The notes under the pieces were generated by a model that saw only the letters and a program-made list of their open reading frames with translations, had not been told where the DNA came from and ran no database searches. The translations under genes and the position numbers were made by a program. From the NCBI RefSeq assembly GCF_002927635.1, contig NZ_PRDS01000001.1, positions 496,001 through 560,000 of the forward strand: a stretch of 64,000 bases of DNA. The letters run 5' to 3'. Each line of letters starts with the position of its first letter. Position 1 is the first letter of the stretch. Below, piece after piece: positions 38,185 through 58,817 of this stretch. This stretch comes from Albidovulum inexpectatum. GTDB lineage: Bacteria > Pseudomonadota > Alphaproteobacteria > Rhodobacterales > Rhodobacteraceae.

Positions 38185-38274
38185 TGGCGGAGACGAAGGG
38201 ATTCGAACCCTCGAGACGGTTTCCCGCCTACTCCCTTAGCAGGGGAGCGCCTTCGACCACTCGGCCACGTCTCC
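38185..38274 (-). tRNA. tRNA-Ser (anticodon GCU)
   Basis: A 90-nt tRNA read on the minus strand. The acceptor stem GGAGACG pairs with CGTCTCC and CCA is encoded. The D-arm contains the TGGCCGAGTGG block, the anticodon loop CTGCTAA (anticodon at 38238-38240) sits on a 5-bp CTCCC/GGGAG stem, and a long variable arm of the serine type precedes the TTCGAATC T-loop. It decodes AGC/AGU. Confidence 0.97.
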
Positions 38275-46520: not shown

Positions 46521-49052
46521 TCAGTCCAGCGCGCGCTCGACTTCCTCGCGCTCGAAGATCTCGATGATGTCGCCCTTGCGGATGTCATCGTAATTCTCGA
46601 ACGCCATGCCGCATTCCTGGCCGGACTGGACTTCCTTGACCTCGTCCTTGAAGCGCTTGAGCGTCTTGAGCGTGCCTTCGTGGATCACCACGTTGTCGCG
46701 CAGCAGACGCACGCCGGCGGAACGCCGCGCCACGCCCTCGGTGACCAGGCAGCCGGCAACCTTGCCCACGCCCGACACCTTGAAGACCTCGCGGATCTCG
46801 GCATAGCCGATGAAGTTCTCGCGCACCTCGGCCTTCAGCAGGCCCGATGCCGCCTTCTTCACGTCATCGACCAGGTCATAGATGACCGAGTAATACCGGA
46901 TCTCGACGCCCTTCTGGTTCGCCGCCTGACGCGCGGGCGCATTGGCACGCACGTTGAAGCCCAGGATCGGCGCGCCCGATGCCTCGGCCAGGCCGACATC
47001 GGTTTCGGTGATCGCGCCGACCCCCGAATGCAGCACGCGCACACGCACCTCGTCATTGCCGATCTTCTCAAGCGCCTGGGCAATCGCCTCGGCCGAGCCC
47101 TGAACGTCGGCCTTCACCAGGACCGGCAGTTCGGCGACATTGGCATCGGCCTTGGCCTTGGCCATCAGCTGTTCCAGCGTCTTGGCCGCACCCGCGGCCG
47201 CGCGCTTGTCGCGGGCAGCTTCCTGGCGGTACTCGGCGATCTCGCGGGCCTGGGCCTCGGTCTCGACGACGTTCAGGATGTCGCCCGCCTCGGGCGTGCC
47301 GTGCAGACCCAGAACCTCGACCGGAACCGATGGCCCGGCCTCGTTCACGCGGTCGCCGTGATCGTTGATCAGGGCGCGCACCTTGCCCCATTGTTCGCCG
47401 ACGACAAAGACATCACCGCGCCGCAGGGTACCGTTCTGTACCAGAACCGTGGCAACCGGGCCGCGGCCGACATCCAGCTTGGCCTCGATCACCGCGCCAC
47501 GCGCACGGCGGTTCGGGTTGGCCTTCAGCTCCAGGATCTCTGCCTGCAGCGCGATGGCTTCCAGCAGCTCGTCCAGCCCCTTGCCGGTCTTGGCCGAAAC
47601 CTCGACATCCTGCACGTCGCCGCCCATCTTCTCGACCACGACTTCGTGCTGCAGCAGTTCCGTGCGCACCTTCTGCGGGTTGGCATCGGGCTTGTCGCAC
47701 TTGTTGATCGCCACGATCATCGGGACACCTGCGGCCTTGGCGTGATTGATCGCCTCGACCGTCTGCGGCATGACCGAGTCGTCGGCCGCCACGACCAGAA
47801 CGACGATATCCGTCACCTGCGCACCGCGGGCGCGCATCGAGGTGAAGGCCGCGTGGCCGGGCGTATCCAGGAAGGTCAGCACCGCACCCGAATCCGTCTT
47901 CACCTGATAGGCGCCGATATGCTGCGTGATCCCGCCGGCCTCGCCCGAAACGACGTTGGTCTTGCGGATCGCATCCAGCAGCGAGGTCTTGCCGTGATCG
48001 ACATGGCCCATGATCGTGATGACCGGCGGACGCGGACGCAGGTCCTCGGGCCGGTCCTCTTCCTGCTCGATCACCTGTTCGACATCGGCATCCGACACGC
48101 GCACGGCCTTGTGGCCGAATTCCTCGATGATGATCTCGGCGGTTTCGGCATCGATGGTCTGGTTGACATTGACCATCATGCCCATCTTCATCAGCGCCTT
48201 GATCACGTCGGCGGCACGCTCGGCCATGCGGTTGGCCAGTTCCGACACGACGATCTGGTCGGGCAGCTGCACCTCGCGCGAGACCTTTTCGGCACGAACC
48301 GTCTGGCCCATCGCCTTCTGCCGGGCCTTTTCCTGCTTGCGCTTCATCGCGGCAAGCGAACGCTGACGCCCGCCCTCGCCCGCAAGCGCTTCCGACAGGG
48401 TCAGCTTGCCCGAACGGCGGCCGTCCTCGCGCCCGCCCTTGCGCGTGTCGCGCTCGCGATCGGCGCGTTCGCGGTCGCTCTTGCGCGGGCCACCGACCGG
48501 CACGCCCTTGGTGGCGACGCGCGCCGCCGCGGCCTGGGCCGCAGCCTGGTCGTCCTCGGGCCGTGTGCGAGCGGCTTGCTTGTCCTTCTCCTTTGCCGGG
48601 GCAGGCTTTTCGGCCTCTTCCTTGGCAAGGCGTTCTTCCTCGGCCTTCTCGCGCAGGGCTTCCTCGCGCTCGCGCTCCTCGCGCTCACGCGCCTCGGCCT
48701 CGGCGCGGCGGCGTTCGCGCTCTTCCTCGCGCTTGCGCTCTTCTTCTTCACGCTTGCGCGCTTCTTCGGCCTCGTTGGCCTTGGCCGCCGCCAGCGCCTT
48801 CAGGCGACGCTCCATCTCTTCTTCAGAGATGCCCGCCGGACGCCGGGAAGGATCGCCAAGCCTTGCCGGCTTGGCCTTGTTGTCGGCCGCGGCCCCAGAC
48901 GCGGCCGCCGCGCCGGGCTTCGGCACCACGACGCGCTTGCGCTTGGTCTCGACGACAACGCTCTTGGTCCGGCCATGGCTGAAGCTCTGCTTCACCTGAC
49001 CCGGACGCGCGCCACCAAGACCCAGGGGTTTCTTACCGTCTTTGTCGCTCAT
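46521..49052 (-). CDS. infB: Translation initiation factor IF-2
   Basis: An 843-residue GTPase that delivers fMet-tRNA to the ribosome. The basic N-terminus ([12 protein letters not shown]) is followed by a very long charged Glu/Arg/Ala coil (about 75-240), then the G domain with GHVDHGKTS near residue 350, DTPGHAAF and NKCDKP, then domains II-IV. It is the last gene of the nusA operon and overlaps the YlxR-type gene by 4 bp. Alternative internal starts giving shorter IF-2 isoforms, known in E. coli, are possible but not evident. Confidence 0.97.
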
Positions 49053-49678
49053 GCCGATTTCGTTTCCTTCCCGGCGGATCGTCCGCCGTCAATACCTCTG
49101 AGGCCCGCCAGCCTCGTCGCTTCCTGTACAATACGCGGCGCAAGACCACCAGCGCCGACCGCGCCATGTACCACGAATTCACGCCCGAATGCCAGACCCA
49201 GCTCGGCCGCGCTGAGGCAGCCGAACCATCTGGCGCCCTCGGGCGTCCACAACTTGCCCTTGCCCCGTTCCGACCCATCTGTTGCCTGGAACAGGACCTT
49301 GACGCGGCCGGTCGCAAGCCAGTCCTTGACCTTCTCGAACCCGGCCACCGCCTCGCCGGCCTTTCGGGCCAGTGCGATCAGCTCGATCAGCCGGCGGACG
49401 AGCAGCCCTTCGACCATATCTTCAAGATTGTCCGGCACGTCCACCCGGGCCCGGGCGGCGCGCGCAAACAGGCCCTTGCGGGCGGCGGTCCGCAGCGCCT
49501 CGCGGTCCGCGCAGACCCAGATGCCGCGCCCGGGCAGCCGGCCCGCGACATCGGGGATCACCGCGCCGTCGGGAGAGACGACAAAGCGGATCAGCCCCGA
49601 TTTCGGCTGCGATTCGCCCGTGACGATGCAGCGCCGCTCGGGCTCGGTCCTGTTCCTTTCGCGTCCGCCTCGGGCCAT
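49049..49678 (-). CDS. YlxR-type RNA-binding protein with L7Ae-like domain
   Basis: A 209-residue protein combining an N-terminal YlxR/DUF448 domain ([37 protein letters not shown]) with a C-terminal L7Ae/L30e-like domain (about 95-190: [18 protein letters not shown]). YlxR homologues are nucleic-acid-binding proteins of the nusA operon whose precise role is unsettled. It lies 23 bp after nusA and overlaps infB by 4 bp. The fused L7Ae-like module is typical of alphaproteobacteria. Confidence 0.9.
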
Positions 49679-49701: not shown

Positions 49702-51384
49702 TCAGGCCTCGGCGGCCCCCTCGTCGTCGCCCTCGTCGCTCTCGTCCGCCTCAAGCTCGGCCGGATCGACCCAGCCAAGCTGGACGCGGGCATTCATGAT
49801 CAGGTGCTGGGCCTCTTCAAGGCTCATGTCGAACTTCTCGAGAATGCCCTCATCCTTGACCCGCTCGCCATTCACGGTGGTCCAGCCGCCGGCCAGTTCC
49901 CAGTCTGCGCAGGTGGCGAAGTCCTCGATCGTCTTGATGCCTTCCTTGGCCAGCGCCTCGACCATCTGCGGGGTCAGCCCCTCGAACTCGATCAGGCTGT
50001 CCTCGGCACCAAGCGCCCGCGCATTCTCGATCGCCTTGCGGTTCTGCTCTTCCAGGACATCGCGGGCCCGGGCCTGCAATTCGCGAGCCGTATCATCGTC
50101 CACGCCTTCGATCGACATCAGCTCGTCGATGTCGATATAGGCGACCTCTTCAAGGCTGGTGAAGCCCTCGGACACCAGAAGCTGGGCAAAGAATTCGTCC
50201 AGGTCCAGCGTATCCATGAACAGCTTCGTGCGCTCGGCGAATTCGGCCTGGCGACGGCGGCTTTCCTCTTCCTCGGTCAGGATGTCGATGTCCAGACCCG
50301 TCAGCTGGCTGGCCAGGCGCACGTTCTGGCCGCGGCGGCCGATGGCCAGGCTCAGCTGGTCGTCGGGCACGACGACCTCGATCTTGCCGGCTTCCTCGTC
50401 GATGACGACCTTGGAAACTTCCGCGGGCTGCAGCGCGTTGACCAGGAAGGTCGCCTGATCCTCGTTCCACGGGATGATGTCGATCTTCTCGCCCTGCAGC
50501 TCGTTGACGACGGCCTGCACGCGGCTGCCGCGCATGCCGACGCAGGCGCCGACCGGGTCGATCGCGTTGTCATGGCTGATCACCGCGATCTTCGCGCGCG
50601 AACCGGGATCGCGGGCCACGGCCTTGATCTCGATGATGCCGTCATAGATCTCGGGCACTTCCATCTTGAACAGCTCGGCCATGAATTCCGGCGCGGTGCG
50701 CGACAGGAAGATCTGTGGCCCACGGGTCTCGCGGCGAACGTCCTTGATATAGGCGCGAATGCGGTCACCGGGGCGATAGCTCTCGCGTCCGATCTTCTCG
50801 TTGCGGCGCAGGATGGCCTCGCCACGGCCGACATCGACGATGATGTTGCCGTATTCCTCGCGCTTGACGATGCCGTTGATGATGGTGCCCTTGCGGTCCT
50901 TGAATTCCTCGTACTGGCGCTCGCGCTCGGCTTCGCGGACCTTCTGCAGGATCACCTGCTTGGCCGACTGGGCGGCGATGCGGCCCAGCTCGACCGGGGG
51001 GATGACCTCGTGGAATTCGTCGCCCGGCAGCGGACCTTCGGCGCTGGCCGGATCGATCCGCTGGCCGTCGCGCAGCCAGAATTCCTCGCGCCCGGCGCGT
51101 GGCGGGACGAACAGCGACCGGGCCTGGTCGACGGTCATCTGTGCCTGGTAGTTCTCCAGATCCTCATCGGCCACGACGGTGCGCACGCGGGTAAAGGTGG
51201 CTCTCCCGGTCTTGCGGTCGATCCGCACCCGGATGTCCATTTCAGATCCATAGCGCGACTTCGCCGCACGGGCGAGGCTTTCCTCCATGGCCTGCACGAC
51301 CAGGTCAGGATCGATCATCTTTTCGCGTGCGACCGCCTCGGCGGTTTGCAGCAGCTCAAGCTGGTTGGCAGAGGTGATCGCCAT
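49702..51384 (-). CDS. nusA: Transcription termination/antitermination factor NusA
   Basis: A 560-residue RNA polymerase-binding protein. The N-terminal domain (about 1-130) is followed by S1 ([21 protein letters not shown]), KH1/KH2 ([58 protein letters not shown]) and C-terminal helix-hairpin-helix/acidic repeats (about 370-530), then an acidic tail. It controls pausing, intrinsic termination and antitermination. The start directly abuts the rimP stop; GAGGAGGAA in the rimP 3' end serves as SD. NusA could act on the terminator in this operon's own leader. Confidence 0.97.
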
Positions 51385-51957
51385 TCATTCCTCCTCGGAA
51401 CTGTCGTCTTCTTCGATATGGTCGAAAGCAGATTCGTCAACGGACTCGGTCGCCTTCTTCTGCCGCAGCATTTCGGCGATCAGTTCGTCGTTCAGGACCA
51501 GCTTGGCGTCTGCAAGCCAGTCAAATTTCAACCCGATCGTGCCTTCGTCGATCTCGATCAGGACCTCGTCGCCCTCGACGCCGGCAAGGCGGCCCTTGAA
51601 GCGCTTGCGGCCGTCGATCAGCTCGGCCGTTTCCAGCCGCGCCTCGAAGCCGGTCCACATCTCGAAATCCTTCAGCCGGGTCAGCGGCCGGTCGATGCCG
51701 GGCGAGGACACCTCGAGCGTGTAGGATTCCTCGATCGGGTCCTCGACATCCAGAACAGCCGAAACCGCAACCGAGATGCGCCCGCAATCCTCGACATCGA
51801 TGCCGCCTTCGGGGCGGTCGGCCATGATCTGCAGGGTCTTGGTGTTGCCGCCCATCAGGCGGATCCGGACCAGCTCGAATCCCAGCCCCTCGATCGTGGG
51901 CGTCACGATCTCGGCCAGGCGGCGGTCGATGGGTGTCTTGGCGATGAGATCTGACAT
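51385..51957 (-). CDS. rimP: Ribosome maturation factor RimP
   Basis: A 190-residue 30S assembly factor. The N-terminal domain has [39 protein letters not shown] and [14 protein letters not shown]; the Sm-like C-terminal domain is followed by an acidic tail ([17 protein letters not shown]). The ATG at 51957 has AAGGA upstream. It is first in the rimP-nusA-ylxR-infB operon. An intrinsic terminator lies 16 nt upstream. Confidence 0.94.
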
Positions 51958-51972
51958 CGGTCCTTCAGGCAT

Positions 51973-51996
51973 CAAAAAACGGGCCCAGCGGCCCGT
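51973..51996 (-). terminator. Intrinsic terminator/attenuator in the rimP leader
   Basis: On the minus strand a perfect 7-bp stem ACGGGCC / GGCCCGT (51990-51996 and 51979-51985, 4-nt loop) is followed by six T. The T-tract ends 16 nt before the rimP ATG, leaving no room for a promoter between them. It either ends tspO transcripts or attenuates the operon. A second perfect hairpin (GCGCGGG / CCCGCGC, 52014-52034) lies just upstream. Confidence 0.75.
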
Positions 51997-52116
51997 CACG
52001 CGTTTCCGGTGGGGCGCGGGTTTGGACCCCGCGCACCGCGCTGTTGAATGCCATATAGGCCAGATCGCCCGCTTTCGCAAGCCCCGGCGTTCGGACAGGC
52101 GATGCGGGGCGAAAGC

Positions 52117-52581
52117 TCAGCCCGCCGGGTTGTTGCGCCAGATCTGGAAATTCAGCGCACCCGCAAGGCTCAGCCAGCCCAGATAGGGCAGCAGAAGCAG
52201 CCCCGCCAGCCGGTCCAGCCGCCAGAACACGGGCACCATGACCGCAACCACGATCCACAATGCGACCATCACGACCAGCGCCACGTCGATGCGATGGGCG
52301 CCGAAAAAGGTCGGCGTCCAAAAAGTGTTCAACGCGATCTGCAACGCCCACAGCGACAGCGCCAGCCCGACCCCCTGAATCGCCGGACCCGTCAGCGTGG
52401 CGATGCGTGCGCCGGACAGGGCGATCAGGACATAAAGCGTGGTCCATGCCACGGGAAAGGCCCAGCGCGGCGGGGTCCATGCCGGCCTGTTCAGCGCATC
52501 ATACCAGGCGCCGGGCGAAAAGATCATGCCCGTCGTCGCCGCCGCCGCGCATGCCGCCAGAAGAACCAGAAACGCCGTCAT
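52117..52581 (-). CDS. tspO: TspO/MBR family protein
   Basis: A 154-residue, five-helix membrane protein homologous to Rhodobacter TspO and the mitochondrial benzodiazepine receptor. Conserved aromatic blocks are WYDALNRPAWTPPRWAFPVAW, LNTFWTPTFFGAHR and PYLGWLSLAGALNFQIWR. TspO binds tetrapyrroles and, in R. sphaeroides, modulates pigment gene expression in response to oxygen. hemH lies about 5 kb away, but no direct operon link exists. It precedes rimP on the same strand with 159 bp between. Confidence 0.93.
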   Translation of the reverse strand: MTAFLVLLAACAAAATTGMIFSPGAWYDALNRPAWTPPRWAFPVAWTTLYVLIALSGARIATLTGPAIQGVGLALSLWALQIALNTFWTPTFFGAHRIDVALVVMVALWIVVAVMVPVFWRLDRLAGLLLLPYLGWLSLAGALNFQIWRNNPAG

Positions 52582-58786: not shown

Positions 58787-58817
58787 GAAAAAAGGCGGTG
58801 GGAAACCCACCGCCTTT
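58787..58817. terminator. Bidirectional intrinsic terminator between hemH and the small-peptide gene
   Basis: A perfect 9-bp stem GGCGGTGGG / CCCACCGCC (58794-58802 and 58806-58814) with an AAA loop. On the plus strand only TTT follows; on the minus strand it is followed by TTTTTTCTT. It is therefore stronger for the minus-strand peptide gene. Confidence 0.85.

Follow-up and report, generated by a model that had tools for sequence, protein, structure and literature searches.

The window analysed here is a stretch of 64,000 nucleotides in which the operon rimP-nusA-ylxR-infB is encoded on the minus strand. Its genes are identified as rimP at 51385..51957 (RimP equivalog NF000932 and PF02576), nusA as the second gene of the operon at 49702..51384 (TIGR01953), ylxR at 49049..49678 (PF04296) and infB at 46521..49052 (TIGR00487). 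Upstream on the same strand lies tspO (52117..52581, NF047825), a neighbour outside the element described below; a prolyl aminopeptidase gene is also located upstream of rimP. NCBIfam and Pfam thus agree with a preliminary description of this DNA on the gene order and on tspO as upstream gene. In E. coli, metY precedes the rimP-nusA operon. The same description had pointed to the absence of metY beside rimP, and the sole tRNA in the window is indeed tRNA-Ser at 38185-38274, which is also the only feature above gathering score when the window is scanned with Rfam 15. Between 51900 and 52120, five Rfam matches are obtained at E up to 10, all far under their gathering scores. A tRNA-like element or fMet remnant before rimP was dropped as a candidate, with no tRNA nearby and no Rfam support.

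Between tspO and rimP we find a conserved leader RNA of 72 nt (51974..52045, minus strand like all features that follow), which reaches from AACAG, the inferred +1, to the end of a U-tract and is described by covariance model R1. It consists of the 5' segment AACAGCGCG (52037..52045), hairpin 1 (52014..52034) with seven perfect pairs GCGCGGG/CCCGCGC and the 7-nt loop GUCCAAA, the linker CCACCGG (52006..52012) and an intrinsic terminator. Fold prediction and terminator scan both place the terminator hairpin, a perfect 8-bp stem with loop GCUG, at 51978..51997, and the U-tract of six residues lies at 51974..51979. The minus-strand sequence of the terminator is GACGGGCC-GCTG-GGCCCGTT-TTTT. The perfect hairpin with six U residues 16 nt before the rimP start at 51957 is thereby as first described. 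The second perfect hairpin upstream is likewise present at 52034-52014, but its distance to the terminator stem is 16 nt and not 17. Just past the U-tract, an in-frame ATG is found at 51970-51972, from which RimP could begin five codons earlier (MPEGPMSDL).

The terminator folds with -15.6 kcal/mol, a value reached by none of 200 shuffled sequences. For the whole 72-nt leader the fold is modestly better than for shuffles, 5 of 200 of which equal it (z -2.04). Terminator-like sites are not in excess in the surrounding 9 kb, where a lax scan finds 4 sites compared to 5.3 +/- 2.2 in shuffles. The window holds just two perfect stems of at least 7 pairs with a T6 run behind them, both inside this 9-kb region, whereas 300 dinucleotide-shuffled versions of the region hold none. 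The only such site besides that of rimP is a strong terminator at 58794-58811 on the minus strand, GGTGGGTTTCCCACC with T6. That the rimP hairpin is real and not a product of chance follows from its conservation across Rhodobacteraceae.

This conservation was determined from a RimP-based collection of 110 loci, 30 from relatives and 80 from genome contigs, two sets that overlap. Upstream of rimP, nearly all collected loci carry in order a promoter, AACAGCGG, a hairpin, the ACCG linker and a terminator, and the loop of the leader hairpin is either GGUCCAAAC-like or UUCCACC-like. Alignment A1, from which R1 was built, contains 92 distinct leaders; the ACCG core of the linker is conserved to at least 90% therein, with variable flanking bases. 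In its own genome, R1 finds one strong match, the leader of the window (75.5 bits, E 1.3e-15), and the next match has an E value of 0.09. At E <=0.01, R1 has a match in 277 of the 295 genomes of Rhodobacteraceae, which almost all represent different genera, and in 251 of 260 good assemblies of the family. The conservation of the hairpin in Rhodobacteraceae, which had been proposed as a check on attenuation, is thus borne out. Among 289 genomes drawn from the class there are four strong matches, all inside Rhodobacteraceae, and 15 weak ones (E 3.5e-4 to 6e-3) in 14 genomes outside the family, of which four coincide with a RimP match (L149, L156, L157 and L159).

For the 18 family genomes without R1 match, RimP could be located in nine, and inspection by eye reveals a hairpin and U-tract shortly before rimP in seven of these nine loci. 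The terminator can therefore outlast the rest of the element. Among the R1-negative genomes, G077 has a U-tract that abuts the ATG. In G320 (L269) the hairpin is kept before rimP without U-tract, a natural loss of the terminator, and in G201 the leader looks degraded, so the element can also be lost.

Compensatory changes were followed in alignment A2, which holds 100 leaders aligned to R1; most genera contribute a single sequence, and some of the species are shared with A1. A2 includes L199, whose flank lacks rimP and which stands outside all rimP-based counts. Rows L009 and L039 were left out because they lie at contig ends, and parsing failed for 6 of 223 loci (L009, L033, L039, L084, L185 and L187). 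A2 was fitted to the modelled structure and leans toward it, which has to be kept in mind for the following values. Its cells are paired to 94.6%, compared to 84.3% in shuffles, and the whole-structure covariation score is 0.359, where shuffles reach 0.169 +/- 0.008 and slid versions no more than 0.074. Hairpin 1 shows changes on both sides for all seven modelled pairs. The number of pairs changed on both sides is a less clear measure, with 8 against 6.3 in shuffles (36 of 500 as high). The terminator stem barely varies: its core CGGGC/GCCCG is kept in 99-100 of the 100 sequences, and only the outermost pair is exchanged, with GC instead of AU in 10 sequences. Nothing would prevent a plain terminator from covarying, so the nearly fixed stem before rimP points to a further constraint on its sequence. 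Judged from this alignment, the constraint seems to be either recognition by a protein, as Naville and Gautheret argue (PMC2965389), or an alternative pairing.

Transcription of the leader is predicted to start from its own promoter. In the window it reads TTGCGA-17-TATATG, with the -35 hexamer at 52075..52080 and the -10 hexamer at 52052..52057, which ends 6 nt before AACAG. Both boxes are common to the leaders of the family. In genus-level leaders with enough upstream sequence, our script detects a TTGNNN box 15-19 nt before the hexamer in 104/104, the spacer is 17 nt in 98/104, and the hexamer is TATATC or TATATG in 90/104. As AACAG begins 6-7 nt after the -10 hexamer in 99/104, we infer that the RNA starts there, at about 52045. 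In many family leaders, inspection by eye shows a longer -35 region, CTTGCAGACTC, and TTGCAG is found in 45/104. The extension may serve an activator as its site or belong to the -35 element itself; a search for CTTGCAGACTC in the own genome gave 0 matches.

The distance from the end of the U-tract to the start of rimP is 11-83 nt and less than 36 nt in 97 of 111 genus-level leaders. A gap of this size is too short for a usual second promoter, and in these 97 cases read-through must reach rimP, which agrees with the earlier remark that the hairpin lies too close to rimP for an intervening promoter. These distances also bear on an alternative, an ordinary terminator of the upstream gene, here tspO, with another promoter serving rimP. 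The idea is suggested by tspO itself, which shares the strand of rimP and has its end a short distance upstream, at 52117. Against it, the promoter is located between tspO and the terminator, a second one would not fit downstream of the terminator in 97/111 leaders, and conservation and covariation reach beyond the terminator. Moreover, tspO was detected upstream in only 25 of 106 loci having at least 1200 nt of flank. The scenario named at the outset as refuting attenuation, in which all transcripts crossing the hairpin belong to tspO and rimP has its own start downstream, fits these data badly, and we regard a tspO terminator as very improbable. A count of the orientation of other upstream genes gave 51 plus and 30 minus and was discarded because of long spurious ORFs on both strands.

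The 5' segment is a candidate alternative partner for the terminator. Its CAGCG is complementary to CGCUG at the terminator apex (51986..51990), and as AACAGCGGC it is complementary to the upper 5' arm and loop of the terminator (GCCGCUG). In the window, the fold of the leader prefix contains the 5-bp pairing CAGCG:CGCUG at an energy no better than that of shuffles, 43 of 200 of which fold as well (z -0.71). With the 3' arm of the terminator held unpaired, at least 4 pairs between 5' segment and apex form in 162 of 184 leaders compared to 37% with shuffled 5' segments; the best full-length fold contains this pairing in 29/184. The mean duplex energy of 184 parsed out of 185 unique leaders is -7.32 against -6.95 (sd 0.076, 0 of 2000 shuffles), and for 110 parsed out of 111 genus-level leaders it is -7.71 against -7.56 (p 0.0025), phylogeny being ignored in both comparisons. 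Leaders with the apex CGC carry GCG in the 5' segment in 145/146 cases, those without in 12/38 (Fisher p 2e-21, again ignoring phylogeny; L175 unparsed).

The 5' segment also tends to change where the apex has changed. In a Frigidibacter-like group, CAGAGG is paired with the apex CCUCUG, and in a Pseudorhodobacter-like group ACAG is paired with CUGU while the next bases vary. In a fixed register the antiterminator shows weak covariation (0.042 vs 0.035 +/- 0.008, with 92 of 500 shuffles as high), its cells are paired to 69.6% vs 67.8% (4 of 500 shuffles), and a slide of +2 columns outscores it with 0.132. The equilibrium advantage of the terminator over the fold lacking its 3' arm has a median of 3.3 kcal/mol, so any switch would have to be kinetic or assisted by a factor. 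From these comparisons, which lend moderate support, a role of the 5' segment as antiterminator is plausible.

A conserved structure of this kind could also respond to a signal other than NusA. A protein or an assembly state connected with 30S maturation or initiation, such as RimP, IF2 or a ribosomal protein, would then bind the leader at the UCCA loop and the ACCG linker and shift the balance between antiterminator and terminator. The conserved ACCG core and UCCA loop, the covariation of hairpin 1 and the ability of the 5' segment to pair with the apex when the 3' arm is free are what such an attenuator would show. On the other hand, some leaders have lost the UCCA loop (L024, L025, L029 and L030), and the weak covariation in the fixed register speaks against it. 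We consider such a signal unlikely, and RimP in particular is disfavoured as the target by genomes in which the leader has moved to nusA and rimP is left without an intact one.

These genomes came from 113 leader loci (L116-L148, L164-L243), of which two have no rimP after the leader. In G116 (L199) the leader is located directly before nusA and is separated from rimP by about 1.6 kb including another gene; the leader before rimP has decayed and lost its U-tract. G290 (L187) carries two leaders, of which the one between rimP and nusA is intact and the one before rimP degenerate. A second genome of the genus of G116, G600, has the arrangement rimP - promoter - leader - nusA, with a short 5' UTR of rimP without any terminator. 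The loci of the relocated leaders in G290, G116 and G600 are L263, L265, L266 and L283. The nusA genes of G116 and G290 share 88% DNA identity over 871 bases, and the three cases, from two related genera, are therefore probably to be counted as one event. The relocation suggests that the selected function of the leader lies with nusA, or the genes below it, and not with rimP.

A further possibility is that the element is mainly the gene of a trans-acting sRNA and that rimP is transcribed by read-through from it, a situation resembling that of UpsM upstream of the R. sphaeroides dcw cluster. An own promoter and terminator, a usually single copy and a conserved RNA 5' end would suit such a gene, and UpsM provides a precedent within the same family (PMC5089854). 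Yet all strong R1 matches (E below 1e-7) with inspected flanks are followed by rimP or nusA, and the relocation retains the element in cis to nusA. An sRNA as the main function, which would be compatible with attenuation, appears improbable to us. At first pass, 18 genomes had two R1 matches; on rerun, only G290 and G181 had a second match below 1e-5. The remaining second matches (4e-4 or weaker) were assumed to be chance. The second match of G181 (G181:C22:11093-11155; L264, about 1094-1156) has an E value of 5.6e-6 and lies on a different contig from that of the copy at rimP; it may be either a functional copy or a terminator of similar appearance.

Attenuation at rimP, proposed in the preliminary description, is supported by comparison: an upstream promoter with its 17-nt spacer in 98/104, no room for a second one in 97/111 and the element itself in 277/295. 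Together with the compared structure and position, and the association with nusA where rimP has lost its intact leader, this indicates that the leader is real and conserved and very probably functions as an attenuator, a family-specific variant of the rimP-leader type. The description had proposed attenuation; the promoter, the probable start of the RNA, the covariation seen in the second hairpin, the possible antiterminator and the assignment to the rimP-leader type had escaped it. We favour, with moderate confidence, a cis-acting transcription attenuator of rimP-nusA-ylxR-infB with NusA feedback as its most likely control. RNA polymerase would start at the conserved promoter, at about 52045, and synthesize the 72-nt leader with its 5' AACAG segment, hairpin 1 and ACCG linker, followed, at a distance of 16 nt from rimP, by the intrinsic terminator. 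Some of the polymerases would stop there and release a short RNA, and the rest would read through to give the operon mRNA. NusA would most likely raise the stopped fraction and thereby keep its own level in check by negative feedback. Other possible targets of the control are infB and ylxR, both of which remain downstream.

More speculatively, the leader may be a dedicated Rhodobacteraceae RNA switch for NusA homeostasis. Here AACAGCGG would be held on the terminator apex across hairpin 1, and NusA, perhaps through its KH and S1 domains, or its pausing would tip the fold to the terminator; promoter, leader and terminator would form a portable cassette that has moved from rimP to nusA. This extended version is offered tentatively.

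Feedback by NusA has precedents. Naville and Gautheret (2010) found that predicted attenuators precede rimP more often than any other gene and suggested NusA, as a hypothesis, as the best candidate effector (PMC2965389). In the rimP-nusA-infB operon, their rimP-leader places an intrinsic terminator, whose stem reads GGGc(...)gCCC, a short distance upstream of rimP, and the Rhodobacteraceae leader is alike in both respects: the stem is present as CGGGC/GCCCG in 99-100 of 100 sequences, and for the stated range of 4-130 nt between Rho-independent terminator and gene, the distance is 16 nt here and 11-83 nt in 111 leaders. The general form is described there without a larger conserved element and with a visible antiterminator only in some Gammaproteobacteria. 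In contrast, the leader of Rhodobacteraceae adds a promoter, a 5' segment, a covarying hairpin and a linker, and stands before nusA in three genomes.

A 2025 review (PMC12288461, citing Mondal et al. 2016) describes autoregulation of NusA in B. subtilis, where the protein stimulates termination in the leader of its own gene. This system belongs to a different phylum; what is shared is an element in cis to nusA, given in Rhodobacteraceae by the operon order and by the leader directly before nusA in G116, G290 and G600. NusA control gains weight from this placement in three genomes and from the precedent. For E. coli, two terminators before rimP and an effect of NusA on its own operon are reported (PMC6511841). 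RF01770 is the gammaproteobacterial rimP leader (PMC5955585), which shares the position before rimP and the terminator with the Rhodobacteraceae leader, but its model does not match. Membership in RF01770 was rejected, as it is absent among the matches up to E 10 in 51900-52120 and has 0 matches in the own genome. Across 21 genomes it gave 0 matches over cut-off, and in 14 control genomes it gave a match in 8, one of them over cut-off. UpsM, the Hfq-dependent 206-nt leader sRNA of the dcw cluster in Rhodobacteraceae with very likely action in trans, is similar as a family-specific leader whose terminator is read through into the operon; it differs in the operon, and its rearranged fold is not conserved (PMC5089854). 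Among the titles and abstracts listed for Rhodobacter or Rhodobacteraceae, none names this leader, and the main text of two R. sphaeroides transcriptome papers is without mention of nusA and rimP. The general idea of attenuation is already known; new is the family-wide structured element with promoter, possible antiterminator and relocation to nusA. With a compact, covarying leader of 72 nt and genomes that carry it before nusA and not before rimP, the suggestion of NusA becomes directly testable, and the leader represents a minimal template for studying the tuning of an intrinsic terminator by NusA in Alphaproteobacteria.

Beyond Rhodobacteraceae, 19 regions upstream of rimP were collected and RimP was found again in 15. 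Nine loci from other alphaproteobacterial families have their own terminator before rimP (L149, L159, L246, L249, L250, L251, L253, L257 and L258), and no Rfam family is found at these nine at gathering score. Our script found no hairpin with U-run in 8 of the 15 regions and detects one before rimP in the other 7. These hairpins are mostly GTGGGC...GCCCAC or close to it, which fits the GGGc(...)gCCC motif of the rimP-leader.
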